From positions 1-55,356 of the forward strand of contig JAJFIS010000012.1 in the NCBI GenBank assembly GCA_021774735.1: a stretch of 55,356 nucleotides of DNA. The letters are read 5' to 3'. Under the pieces are notes generated by a model, which searched no databases, was not told the DNA's origin, and saw only the letters and a list, made by a program, of their open reading frames with translations. Of the stretch, positions 32,415-36,376 are shown piece by piece (position 1 is the stretch's first letter; each line of letters opens with the position of its first letter). The position numbers were made by a program, and so were the translations under genes. The DNA is from Alphaproteobacteria bacterium (GTDB taxonomy: Bacteria; Pseudomonadota; Alphaproteobacteria; Sphingomonadales; Kordiimonadaceae).

Positions 32415-32849
32415 TTATTGTGCTGATTGATAGACAGATTGGTTAATAAATACGCGAATCTTCCCAGACCCTAGGCGACGATCAACCGCATTTTGAAAAT
32501 AATAAGCCACTACATCCGGGTCAACGGGGGTGTTCGGCCTAAAACGTCTTGCCGCCAACTGGTTGCCAGCAATTAATATATCTCCGCGCAGCTGAGGTAA
32601 TCTTGTATTTATTTCCTCCAGCTCTGCACCCTCTTGCAATTTCAAGACAACCACCAACATCATACTGCCCTTTTGGCGGCCCCTAACCGTCACCGGAAAG
32701 CTAAATGGTTTCATTTCAATTCTAGCATTAGCAGGCGTTTCTTCCGATGTTTCTTCACTGATCACCGCATCAGCCCCATATACTGGCGTTATTGATGTAG
32801 AAAAAATATTGAGAGCCCCACATATTAATACAATAGCAAAATGCTGCAT
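32415..32849 (-). CDS. Secreted FliL-like protein (tentative)
   Basis: 144 aa from ATG 32849, giving a clear signal peptide (MQHFAIVLICGALNIFSTSITPVYGADA); the frame extends to 32900 without a ribosome binding site. The mature part has a strand-rich core MKPFSFPVTVRGRQKGSMMLVVVLKLQEGAELEEINTRLPQLRGDIL and ends with VAYYFQNAVDRRLGSGKIRVFINQSVYQ. This follows the order of FliL, the flagellar-motor-associated protein: an N-terminal strand, then LP-x-hR-D-x-h and a final V-x-V-x-F strand. Proximity to flaEY supports a flagellar link. The similarity is remote and needs profile comparison. Confidence 0.5.
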   Translation of the reverse strand: MQHFAIVLICGALNIFSTSITPVYGADAVISEETSEETPANARIEMKPFSFPVTVRGRQKGSMMLVVVLKLQEGAELEEINTRLPQLRGDILIAGNQLAARRFRPNTPVDPDVVAYYFQNAVDRRLGSGKIRVFINQSVYQSAQ

Positions 32850-33053
32850 CTTAAACACCTGATGTCTTTGTTTTGGTTTTTGGCCCATTTGACTATCCAT
32901 TCACATTTATTCAACTGGTCTTAACAGCCAAAACTAAATTAATATTACCTTATAGCATATTTGCCGAATCAACTTGGTCTTAAATTATGTCATTTTTACA
33001 TTACTACCACTAAACCTAGGTTTTTTTATCAACAAGGGACCACAATAAAGATT

Positions 33054-33125
33054 ATTTTGCAGCTTCACATTGCCGCATTTTGCAAATTTAATGCATTTTG
33101 CAGTAATTAATTATTGCATTTTGCA
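33054..33125 (+). repeat. GCATTTTGCA repeats, candidate upstream activator sites
   Basis: GCATTTTGCA occurs at 33075-33084, 33093-33102 and 33116-33125. A partial copy (ATTTTGCA) lies at 33054-33061. They lie about 110-180 bp upstream of the predicted start of the sigma-54 promoter. That is the usual place for enhancer-binding-protein sites. Three short copies with unequal spacing are not a CRISPR array. Confidence 0.5.
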
Positions 33126-33209
33126 TCATAACTTTTAGCTGTAATAACACCCTGTTTCTAATCCTTTGAAAATAAACGATTTTAATTTTATTACAACTTA
33201 GATAAAATC

Positions 33210-33225
33210 TGGCACACCCCTTGCG
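33210..33225 (+). promoter_or_regulatory. Sigma-54 promoter (-24/-12)
   Basis: TGGCACACCCCTTGCG matches the RpoN consensus TGGCAC-N5-TTGCW except for the last base. GG (33211-33212) and GC (33223-33224) are exactly 10 nt apart. Transcription should begin near 33236. Nothing is coded between there and 33380, so the promoter serves an RNA. Confidence 0.8.
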
Positions 33226-33235
33226 TATATCTAAT

Positions 33236-33360
33236 TGTCTCTAGAGCAGAGGTAGCGAGAATAAGTTTTTGTAATACTCGACCCCCAATCGTGCGCTTAT
33301 TCACGCAAATACTGCCCTAGAGTCAATAAAGAGCCATTGGTTTTCCAGTGGCTCTTTTTG
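33236..33360 (+). ncRNA. Predicted sigma-54-dependent structured small RNA
   Basis: About 125 nt, starting at the predicted +1 of the sigma-54 promoter and ending in an intrinsic terminator. The closing helix is CTCTAGAGCAG (33239-33249) with CTGCCCTAGAG (33312-33322): 10 pairs and one mismatch. The middle helix is GCGAGAATAAG (33255-33265) with CTTATTCACGC (33296-33306), again with one mismatch. At the top, CGA/TCG (33279/33289) exposes a CCCCCAA loop. The terminator hairpin follows directly. No credible open reading frame lies inside. It converges tail-to-tail with flaEY. I do not recognise a known RNA family. A trans-acting regulator of flagellar genes is an inference from context. Confidence 0.7.
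33328..33359. terminator. Intrinsic terminator of the small RNA, also downstream of flaEY
   Basis: AAAGAGCCA (33328-33336) pairs with TGGCTCTTT (33349-33357), extended by TGG/CCA around a TTTT loop and followed by T residues. It lies 21 bp past the flaEY stop on the other strand and may stop both transcripts. Confidence 0.85.
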
Positions 33361-33379
33361 CATTCAAACTCACTGAAAC

Positions 33380-36376
33380 TTAGATACTGAAAGAGGACCC
33401 CGCGAAGGAACCTGCCTGCAGACGAGCAAGTGCGTCTTGGTAATTTGCGATCTGGGCCAATATTCTAGGTGGTGCATCACCAACATTATTTTTAGCTTGC
33501 TCTTTTATCAGTGCCTTTAAGGGGTCAAATTCTGTGGACCTAAAGGCCCGCTGAATCGTAGATATTGCATCATCGATTATACCTACAACAAATTTTGCCG
33601 TTACTTTATCCGATAGATTTAAGGCCTGATCGAGCCCCAACGCAAAAACACCACCAAGATTTTCAAGATTAGTGCCTTCGTCTTCATCCTTGGTAAGATT
33701 AAATAATTCATCGGTTGGCAATAAGCGAACAGGTTCGATACCTATGCTACGCAGTGCATCACGGCCATCAGCTCCAGCTATCAATTCTATAGCGCCTTTG
33801 CCGCTAACCGTTTCAATTTTTAGTTTTTCGCCTTCGCTCGTTGTTGTCACGGTAACTTTCGCCTTGCCCAGACCGGCAACCCTGATTTTACGGGCAATAT
33901 CGTCAAAGCCATCTCCATCATCAATGGTAATTTTAATGCGCCTGCCACCATTGAAACTAATGGAAAAATAGTCTCCATCTCTAGCGCTAGTCTGCGTGAC
34001 TATATCACGGCTTTGATCTGCATTGACCGCACCCACGGGCAAACCAAGCGCAGATAGCACCGAAGTGCCAGAAGGCGTAAAAGCGACGCCGCCCGCTTCC
34101 ACCTTAGAGAAGGCGAATCCAAATTGCTGGGTGTCCTCTGATGCTCCCGTGCTGCCATCTAAACGCGTGACAAAGCCATCGGTTGCACCCACACTGGTTT
34201 CACCTACAAAAGTTGATGTCGTGGTGCCTGCCACAAATACTTTACCGCTATCCACCGTTAAATCGACAACACGCTCCGTACCACTAGTGCCGATGAAAGT
34301 GGTGAAATCCGCACTAGCGCTGCCACCCCCGTCGGTTAAGCCTGTTACAAAACCATCAAAGCCACCAGCGAGGCTACCATTGACCGTGCCTGATCCAAAT
34401 GCACCGCTGGTGGTAACCCCGGCAATATAAATATTATTACCATCCACCTTCAAAGAGGATAATGAACCCCCTGTTCCCAAAGCACCTAGATTTACGCTGA
34501 AAAGCTGATTGTTTAAATCTGTTGCATCAAGTTTTCTGAGAATTGCATCACCGCCTTCTTCAACCGCGACCAAAATATTACCGTCCGCTGCTATGGCAAC
34601 ACCCTTAACCACATCTTTTCCTGCCCCGCCAAATACTGTCGAACCAATTAAAGCGCCGCTCGTACCATCAATTTGTAGAACCAAAGCGTCACCGCCGCCA
34701 CTATAGCCTGACGTCGCGCTTATGGCACCTTTGGTTTCCCCAGCCAGAATAATATTGTTGCTGCCATCAACCGTGACCGAAAGCCCCGCTGTTGTGGAGA
34801 ATGTATCCAATTGATAGCGAAAAACCTCGTCACCCCCACTGGTGAATTTTGCAACAAATGCATCGGTGCCCGTCACGGCGTCCCCCGCTGCCAGTGAAGT
34901 ATCCGTTTGTCCAGCTATGATAACATTATCGGCACTATCAATAGTGATAGCAAAGCCAGAAGCTTCACTATCTGCACCCAAAAGCCGAGAAAATATAACA
35001 TTGCCTTCACTGTCAAATTTAGTCAGGAAGATATCACTGGTCTCAGCCGTATTGATCTGATGACCAAAAGACCCGGACGATGTACCAACGGCATAAATAT
35101 TACCGACACTGTCCACCGCCACGCCGTTACTACGGGTTTCGGCTGAAACTACAGATTTTCCTTCAAGGTCTGTGATGGAGCCAACCTCTTCATCCACCGC
35201 ATCTGGGTCAGGGTCTTCGCCCGTCGCCGTCTTCAGCGCGTCGGCCAAAAACTTTTCTTTCAAGGCTGCAATTTTAGGATCTAGGTCGCTGTCATTATCA
35301 TCCAAAGCGTCTGTCAGAGTTTTTAATTCTGTCGCCGTTAAGTCAATGCCAGAAAATTTTATGCGGTCGCCTGTGGTTATGGTGGCGTCAATAGTATCTA
35401 AATTCTGTAAGAAGCTTTGAGCTTCGCCGGTGCCGTCAACCCGTGTCACGCTGCCCGTAACAATCAAGCCTGGCGTACTTGCTTGCGGCGTTAAAACTAC
35501 ATCTTCAGTAATCGTTCCCTCAATCTTCAGTCCATAGTCAAAATTACTGTCCGGACCAAAGCCAAAGCGTGTTTGATATTTGGATTGTGGGTCGCCGTTA
35601 CCATCCAAAACGGGGGCACCAAATTCATCTAACAACAGAACAGTTGATATTTGCTGATTTGCAAAGTCAACAATATTGCGAACACTTAATGTTCCGGTTA
35701 TCTGGCTTAAATCAATGGTGATGGTATCAGACACACCCGCTTTGGTTAGCGTAATATCGAAAACTTCAGTGCCTGTTAAACCCGCAACAACATCATCCAC
35801 TGACCCAGTTTGGATTATGCCACCAATATATTCAGTGCCATTGCGCCCTAACCTAACCGAGGTTTCTGTGCGGTTTTCCTTCTCACCAATTAATAAAGTT
35901 AGCTTGTCTAATTCAACATCTTCAATAAAGCCACGCAGTTCAGCAAATCCTTCGGTGAATTGGCTATCCAGGCGGCCAAGCGAGCTTTCTGGTGTGGCCT
36001 TTTCTGCGGCATATTGGGCCAGTGCCCGCAGATTATCGAGCGCTTTAAAAATAGTGAAAGTGGCTTTTTTGTCCAAATCATTACCTGCTGAACCCAAGAA
36101 CCCACGGCTCTCATCAATGAAAGAGCTGAGCCCGCGTACTTCTGCAATGCGAGAAACCAGCGAGCGCGAATCAGAGGCAACTTCCCACGGCGGGATAACC
36201 GCAGGTCCGCGATTGATATTTTGCAACGCCGCTGATGGGGGTAAGGTTAAAACAGATTGTTGAAAGGATTTAGCATCAAAGGACAGCTGCAACAAGTTAG
36301 CGCCCAGACCTACGATCTGAACCGGGGGCAATCCCGAGCCAAAAGCTCCGCCGCTTGTTGTGCCAAAAAAGGCCAT
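33380..36376 (-). CDS. flaEY: FlaEY-like flagellin regulatory protein with SBBP propeller repeats
   Basis: 998 aa. The N-terminal 200 residues are helical (SRIAEVRGLSSFIDESRGFL...). Residues about 400-770 carry beta-propeller repeats of the SBBP type: DSVGNIYAVGTSSGSFG...TSDIFLTKFDSEGNVIFSRLLG, repeated with DNVIIAGQTD, NNIILAGETKG, GNILVAVEEGG and NIYIAGVTTSG. The C-terminus is helical and ends in LQAGSFAGSSFSI. This layout and length match FlaEY of Caulobacter, a trans-acting modulator of flagellin and chemotaxis gene expression. There is no signal peptide. Assignment is by architecture, so moderate confidence. GAAGGAC precedes the ATG. The convergent sigma-54 small RNA ends just beyond its stop. 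Confidence 0.65.
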   Translation of the reverse strand: MAFFGTTSGGAFGSGLPPVQIVGLGANLLQLSFDAKSFQQSVLTLPPSAALQNINRGPAVIPPWEVASDSRSLVSRIAEVRGLSSFIDESRGFLGSAGNDLDKKATFTIFKALDNLRALAQYAAEKATPESSLGRLDSQFTEGFAELRGFIEDVELDKLTLLIGEKENRTETSVRLGRNGTEYIGGIIQTGSVDDVVAGLTGTEVFDITLTKAGVSDTITIDLSQITGTLSVRNIVDFANQQISTVLLLDEFGAPVLDGNGDPQSKYQTRFGFGPDSNFDYGLKIEGTITEDVVLTPQASTPGLIVTGSVTRVDGTGEAQSFLQNLDTIDATITTGDRIKFSGIDLTATELKTLTDALDDNDSDLDPKIAALKEKFLADALKTATGEDPDPDAVDEEVGSITDLEGKSVVSAETRSNGVAVDSVGNIYAVGTSSGSFGHQINTAETSDIFLTKFDSEGNVIFSRLLGADSEASGFAITIDSADNVIIAGQTDTSLAAGDAVTGTDAFVAKFTSGGDEVFRYQLDTFSTTAGLSVTVDGSNNIILAGETKGAISATSGYSGGGDALVLQIDGTSGALIGSTVFGGAGKDVVKGVAIAADGNILVAVEEGGDAILRKLDATDLNNQLFSVNLGALGTGGSLSSLKVDGNNIYIAGVTTSGAFGSGTVNGSLAGGFDGFVTGLTDGGGSASADFTTFIGTSGTERVVDLTVDSGKVFVAGTTTSTFVGETSVGATDGFVTRLDGSTGASEDTQQFGFAFSKVEAGGVAFTPSGTSVLSALGLPVGAVNADQSRDIVTQTSARDGDYFSISFNGGRRIKITIDDGDGFDDIARKIRVAGLGKAKVTVTTTSEGEKLKIETVSGKGAIELIAGADGRDALRSIGIEPVRLLPTDELFNLTKDEDEGTNLENLGGVFALGLDQALNLSDKVTAKFVVGIIDDAISTIQRAFRSTEFDPLKALIKEQAKNNVGDAPPRILAQIANYQDALARLQAGSFAGSSFSI

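Follow-up and report, generated by a model that had tools for sequence, protein, structure and literature searches.

A conserved hairpin RNA of the Kordiimonas order with a sigma-54 promoter and LuxO-type upstream dyads, probably Qrr-like in logic and distinct from Qrr in sequence

The question raised by this locus is whether a short intergenic stretch of a Kordiimonadaceae contig holds the gene for a small RNA and, if so, what switches it on and what it acts upon. The window, meaning the whole 55,356 nucleotides of contig JAJFIS010000012.1 that were analysed, carries a sigma-54 (-24/-12) promoter, TGGCACACCCCTTGCG, at 33210-33225 of the forward strand, with GG-N10-GC spacing and a predicted RNA start at about 33236. 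The predicted RNA is about 125 nt long. Its body (33236-33325, forward strand), defined by fold, covariation and covariance-model matches, consists of a 5' segment that can form a small hairpin of its own, part of the consensus from 34 copies, and a long hairpin. The closing arms, 33239-33249 and 33312-33322, form 10 pairs with one A-C mismatch, the inner helix has one mismatch and the CCCCCAA loop sits on a CGA/UCG mini-stem; the apical region ACTCGACCCCCAATCGTGC (33276-33294, forward strand) is a putative target-pairing seed. An intrinsic terminator at 33328-33359 of the forward strand, possibly shared with the convergent gene, comprises a 13-pair hairpin and a T run (-20.6 kcal/mol). This hairpin is near-symmetrical, the reverse strand reaching -17.6 kcal/mol, and it was missed by a simple terminator scan because the stem consumes most of the T run. 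Folding of positions 33230-33365 gave -50.5 kcal/mol against a mean of -26.7 kcal/mol for dinucleotide shuffles (z -6.75, 0 of 200 as good), and without the terminator z was -3.62, again with none of 200 shuffles as good. A first-pass annotation, made from the letters of the window, had proposed a near-consensus promoter with this start, an inner helix with one mismatch under a CCCCCAA loop, and an intrinsic terminator, all of which are present. Its closing helix of 11 bases stands as far as the arms do pair, but over ten pairs rather than eleven.

The distribution of the RNA was evaluated by searches of increasing depth, in which f1 denotes the family of the window (Kordiimonadaceae, 29 genomes) and f2, f5, f6, f7 and f8 denote groups outside it. 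When 98 related genomes were searched at the DNA level, 28 matched, one of them (G034) in the promoter only; this match, L029, was left out of the alignment. The exact 19-mer of the apical region was found in 24 stretches of the genome collection, labelled Kordiimonas, Kordiimonadaceae, Kordiimonadales, Sphingomonadales or Alphaproteobacteria. With a covariance model built from 28 copies the RNA was found in 33 of the 98 genomes, including all 29 of f1, and with a second model (E<=0.01) in 43 of 296 genomes of the order, namely the 29 of f1 and 14 others. The class-wide model search returned one genome out of 385, that of the window itself. Across the 28 aligned copies ACTCGACCCCCAATCG is invariant. 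The string CCCCCAATCG is carried by all 27 loci L002-L028 and by both g4 genomes (L127, L128), its invariance in the 28-copy alignment being partly by construction because copies were located by that string; among the more distant copies, which came from the covariance models, some lack it, and most have GACCCCC. As judged from these copies the C-rich loop is the most conserved part of the RNA.

The first-pass annotation had described a dedicated, sigma-54-driven, structured small RNA of no recognised family and free of open reading frames, and each of these points held up. In the alignment 96.8% of 504 cells are paired, against 34-55% in slid controls. Changes on both sides occur at 6 of 18 pairs, and 13 double-change cells were counted against 2.0 in shuffles (0 of 500). 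The compensatory changes count in favour of the structure, but by number of pairs the control slid by +2 gives 8 with double changes, above the 6 of the real structure. Two further compensatory changes were seen among f8 copies in the mini-stem below the C-rich loop, from UCCG/CGGA to UCUG/CAGA and to UUCG/CGAA, and in two other copies the outermost pair of this stem is lost or weakened. A protein-coding reading was rejected: no frame inside the RNA exceeds 9 codons, the linkers differ between copies by single bases, and the length of the C run, ranging from 5 to 7 among f8 copies, also speaks against coding. At gathering thresholds Rfam returned one tRNA for the window and no family for the RNA. 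Below threshold the window copy gave no Qrr match even at E 10. The 17 loci of relatives that were compared gave none at E<=1, and all their matches within that limit fell on a single locus, L003. The best sub-threshold match to the window RNA was the alphaproteobacterial sRNA ar15 (RF02345), which scored 18.4 bits (E 0.074) where the gathering score is 40, and ar15 was unmatched in the 17 relatives' loci up to E 1. By these comparisons the RNA is a conserved family without an Rfam name. In one locus, L013 (G018:C1 34293-34482), two tandem copies of the RNA were observed, with a promoter directly before the first only.

The genomic setting of the RNA is equally stable. A homolog of the convergent neighbour (33380-36376, reverse strand) adjoins the RNA wherever this was compared, 33 of 33, which comprises the 27 loci L002-L028 and six further genomes (L151-L156). 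The six belong to f1, f2, f7 and f8, so that synteny for f8 covers only those copies found among them. On the other side lies an unknown protein (32415-32900, reverse strand) with no Pfam match, whose homolog is present at every one of the 27 loci L002-L028 and in 4 of the 6 further genomes (31 of 33); in the longer loci, 11 in number, YggT always comes next, and six of them also have folD. The name flaEY, given to the convergent gene in the first-pass annotation, is unconfirmed because Pfam gives only a beta-propeller repeat (SBBP).

Conservation of the promoter was followed in the 44 primary copies of the RNA family. A promoter resembling TGGCAY-N5-nTG lies about 26 bases before the RNA in 43 of them, that is in all 29 f1 copies and 14 of 15 others, with L011 carrying the variant TGGTAT. 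An automatic pattern counts 42 of 44, missing L130, whose promoter is present in the sequence; that of L242 was added from inspection of the syntenic locus. Upstream of the promoter three dyads were found that lie within the 33054-33360 span of the first-pass annotation and went unnamed there. Scored against the ten fixed positions of TTGCANNNTGCAA and assigned to neither strand, dyad 1 (TTGCATTTTGCAT, 33114-33126) matches 9 and begins 96 bases before the promoter start, dyad 2 (ATGCATTTTGCAG, 33091-33103) matches 8 at 119 bases and dyad 3 (CCGCATTTTGCAA, 33073-33085) matches 8 at 137 bases, the last distance being close to a cluster position of the sites in relatives. Dyads with at least 8 of 10 fixed positions precede 40 of 42 copies, compared to a mean of 10.8 and a maximum of 20 in 100 shuffles, and total 92 sites against 12.7 (maximum 27); 42 of the 44 primary copies entered this count, without L129 and L242. 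Their positions concentrate near -97, -121 and -140 relative to the promoter start. Within the window, dyads counted one by one are about as frequent as chance predicts, with 6 matches at up to one mismatch against 5.4 expected, and the evidential weight of the dyads accordingly comes from their being clustered and conserved. Two f1 copies, L018 and L025, lack a TTGCA dyad. By eye, other repeats resembling TTGTCT.. or TTATCA.. were seen at the usual dyad position in L025 (G027) and L018 (G006), possibly reflecting co-evolution with an altered activator.

These data also bear on the most sceptical account of the locus, in which a promoter arisen by chance and a bidirectional terminator of the neighbouring gene would merely look like an RNA gene. 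The near-symmetrical terminator hairpin and the chance-level frequency of single dyads in the window are what such an account would draw upon, but promoter, dyads, loop and covariation are conserved across four families of genomes, and we regard it as extremely improbable.

In Vibrio fluvialis the LuxO consensus is TTGCAW3TGCAA and lies 89-120 bases before the qrr starts, according to excerpts of PMC11443567. The dyads upstream of the RNA match this published consensus at the level of sequence, and are placed somewhat further upstream. The genome of the window was searched for proteins that could act there. Eleven matches to the sigma-54 activator domain were obtained, 8 of them strong, and one is LuxO-like. 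This protein scores 590.7 bits with the NCBIfam LuxO model NF041946, below the model cut-off of 800, with the next family at 408.6; it aligns over positions 1-461 of 463, and its best PDB match is LuxO, 5ep0. It is encoded on contig C11 and the RNA on C4, so the two are not adjacent. Matches to LuxO at E<=1e-110 occur in all 29 f1 genomes, and the genome of the window has a single such protein. In a tree containing no Vibrio row, and for which a long-branch warning applies, the LuxO-like rows form one clade (99/99). A terminal helix reading PST[LI]YRK is shared by the 11 LuxO-like proteins of the tree and absent from its 6 other activators, although L034 has RSTLYRK. Eleven residues are needed for DNA binding by Vibrio LuxO, as stated in excerpts of PMC11407668, and of these 8 are kept in the window's LuxO-like protein, 7 in NtrX and 2-6 in the others, a test that discriminates weakly because NtrX keeps as many as it does. 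Dyads also precede luxO itself in 13 of 26 f1 upstream regions against a shuffled mean of 4.0 and a maximum of 9, where upstream was counted from the beginning of the match, which need not coincide with the start codon, and 26 of the 29 f1 genes were used (G006 gave no locus, and L086 and L091 were too short). This suggests that luxO may be autoregulated. No kinase or LuxU was recognised by eye among frames of at least 110 residues in the 16.5 kb around luxO, and the two small genes adjoining it encode a PilZ protein and a DUF1491 protein. In a 2004 survey of 138 organisms LuxU was present in three Vibrio strains only and LuxO-like regulators in most Proteobacteria, according to excerpts of PMC524169.

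The association between the RNA and LuxO was then compared with that between the RNA and FlbD. Among 98 genomes, 38 hold both LuxO and the RNA, 12 LuxO only, 1 the RNA only and 47 neither. Outside f1 the corresponding numbers are 9, 12, 1 and 47 (p 4e-5, a value that is optimistic because the genomes are related). It is conceivable that the same RNA is served by another activator, be it the flagellar FlbD, NtrC or NtrX, or a SypG-like LuxO paralog where one is present. FlbD would suit a conserved neighbour that may be flagellar; all 29 f1 genomes carry it, as does each of the 10 genomes outside f1 in which, among the 98 searched, the RNA is present, and outside f1 the RNA occurs in 10 of 36 FlbD-bearing genomes and 0 of 33 FlbD-less ones. 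Against this, 19 genomes outside f1 have FlbD but give no LuxO match, and 18 of these lack the RNA. The exception, G035, which has FlbD and nothing matching LuxO at E<=1e-110, keeps the RNA without sigma-54 promoter or dyads. The link to flagellar or motility control drawn in the first-pass annotation is unsupported, because it rests only on the convergent neighbouring gene, and the dyads fit LuxO instead. At the syntenic copy in G035 (L129/L153, G035:C3 203005-203088) a sigma-70-like TTGTCT/TTATAT pair, identified by eye, apparently replaces the promoter.

Syntenic loci were also inspected, 19 loci for 22 genomes, leaving out G085 (no match) and, although they gave matches, G040 and G094. The LuxO-bearing G041 was found to have the RNA, promoter and dyads at the syntenic locus, a copy missed by the covariance models, and the loop is present in G035. 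The LuxO-bearing G033, G050, G054, G061 and G087 show at most one isolated element there, as do 12 LuxO-negative genomes. Searching 41 genomes for a dyad followed by a promoter yielded 43 matches, compared to 6 in the reversed control, and the only match in the genome of the window is the small RNA (dyad 1 and promoter). The pattern is a coarse tool because, of 19 RNA-bearing genomes searched, just three (G000, G012 and G021) had the RNA's own promoter recovered by it. Five of the 43 matches, chosen for good dyads, were read in sequence, six further stretches were examined with a wider gap allowed, and the remaining matches were judged by eye from the table. In the LuxO-bearing G050 and G061, for which the models had detected no RNA, a match precedes a hairpin with a GACCCCC loop and then a further hairpin, at a non-syntenic locus, with a T run after the hairpins in G061 only. 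These two genomes offer independent support for a unit of dyad, promoter and loop because they were picked for dyads and LuxO, not for the loop. Including G041, G050 and G061, such an RNA is found in 12 of the 21 LuxO-matching genomes outside f1. No RNA was found by any of these routes in the other nine, namely G033 and G054 (f6), G085, G087 and G094 (f8), and G044, G080, G082 and G086 (f5, paralog-type).

The dyad box is not specific to the pairing of LuxO and RNA, as G002, G022, G082, G086 and G044 also have it, together with a sigma-54 promoter, ahead of protein genes. In G002, G022 and G086 the genes concerned are for polysaccharide export, synthesis or transferase functions. In G082 the box stands before a gene for a haem-NO-binding protein (L287:2473-3012), directly before a LuxO-like gene, and in both G082 and G044 it also precedes unnamed proteins. 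LuxO-type dyads with sigma-54 promoters, several of them divergent, were noted at loci L287, L288, L289, L290 and L294. A LuxO-like paralog is encoded on the box-carrying contig in G022, G082, G086 and G044, and G002 has the LuxO ortholog only. With the LuxO model the paralogs score 506-551 bits (six tested) and the RNA-linked orthologs 551-626 bits (four tested). Taken by sequence, the LuxO-like proteins of the group, polysaccharide-linked paralogs included, would form one DNA-binding family with a shared box. In paralog-bearing genomes the activator could be LuxO or the paralog because the same box precedes genes near paralogs, and in Vibrio fischeri SypG and LuxO both activate qrr1 via overlapping sites (excerpts of PMC10162802). 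This, together with the seven LuxO residues kept by NtrX, counts towards a different activator, but the genome of the window has a single LuxO-like protein at E<=1e-110 and the dyads match the consensus published for LuxO itself (excerpts of PMC11443567). Activation by a protein other than LuxO thus appears unlikely to us.

Promoter, dyads, hairpin, loop conservation, synteny, LuxO ortholog and co-occurrence were all obtained by sequence comparison. We consider it probable on these grounds that the locus encodes a stand-alone, trans-acting small RNA activated by LuxO and sigma-54 via the dyads, Qrr-like in its logic and not a Qrr by sequence. A phosphorylated LuxO-type response regulator, presumably answering to cell density, would bind one to three dyads about 100-165 bases upstream of the start, loop to the sigma-54 RNA polymerase and switch transcription of the RNA on. 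The GACCCCCAA loop (CCCCCAA/GACCCCC), presented on the long hairpin, would then most likely pair in trans with G-rich mRNA leaders (UUGGGGG-like), perhaps with the use of Hfq, by analogy with the pairing of Vibrio Qrr RNAs with their targets.

Candidate targets were sought through complementarity to the loop, which the first-pass annotation had proposed might act on Shine-Dalgarno regions, and none was found. Exact complements before ATG numbered 29 against 17 in the reversed control, with a few plausible starts among them. With up to two mismatches there were 44 against 49 in the control, and TTGGGGG occurs 9 times in the window against 10.4 expected. The luxO mRNA was rejected as a loop target, its duplex energies being mostly ordinary compared to mononucleotide shuffles, with two of 30 loci ranking among the best 3 of 200. 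A lack of conserved targets in these searches would agree with a role in which the RNA binds a protein or acts as a sponge, for instance by titration of CsrA, or has another small RNA for a partner rather than mRNAs, and the long hairpin with its extremely conserved loop could be read in the same way. CsrA sites need GGA. The window RNA contains no GGA, on which account a CsrA sponge was rejected, and a loop conserved as plain sequence agrees with pairing. We hold such a role to be improbable and retain trans-pairing with mRNAs as the preferred reading.

In the literature surveyed by title, abstract or excerpt on LuxO, Qrr, Kordiimonas and sigma-54 small RNAs, LuxO-driven regulatory RNAs are described in Vibrio and its close kin, and there was no account of the present RNA or of a LuxO-driven RNA outside the kin of Vibrio. 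The Qrr RNAs of the Vibrionaceae share with it a sigma-54 promoter, a LuxO-like protein in the genome and upstream dyads that follow the LuxO consensus at a distance of about 100 bases or more. The size is also alike, about 125 nt with the terminator here compared to 112-121 bp for the Qrrs of V. fluvialis (excerpts of PMC11443567). The present RNA differs in its fold and seed loop, which have no match to Qrr sequence or structure in Rfam, and in mostly being one syntenic copy away from luxO, whereas qrr1 lies next to luxO; its host moreover belongs to another class of bacteria. Other small RNAs that depend on sigma-54 and upstream activator sites are CrcZ, NrsZ and GlmY/GlmZ, which have other activators and other RNA sequences than the present one. 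The comparison suggests that a Vibrio-type signalling circuit exists far outside Vibrio, in marine Kordiimonadaceae and some of their kin. We give about even chances to a fuller proposal, in which the Kordiimonas order runs a Vibrio-like circuit of LuxO, sigma-54 and small RNA with an RNA unrelated to Qrr, either because an ancient LuxO switch had its RNA exchanged or because this switch came to control a small RNA on two occasions, and in which mobile elements may carry hairpins with the same loop, possibly as interfering mimics. If so, the LuxO switch would be tied to small RNAs more widely, in another class, and the origin of Qrr circuits would become testable, with Kordiimonas offering culturable models.

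Short hairpins with the same loop and no sigma-54 promoter were observed at L132 (G028:C88 4335-4380), L133 (G028:C78), L144 and L031/L148 (G004:C63), and by eye three of these are followed by another hairpin. L144 lies on the viral contig IMGVR_UViG_3300005731_000415 together with an integrase, and L148 adjoins an EcoRI-type methylase. The genes tested beside L132 and L133 matched no phage family. It is possible that these hairpins are RNA mimics carried by mobile elements. At L188 (G000:C36 139978-139996) a gene start region, TATTGGGGGTAGATATTTATG, is partly complementary to the loop of the small RNA; the product of this gene may resemble a restriction enzyme.
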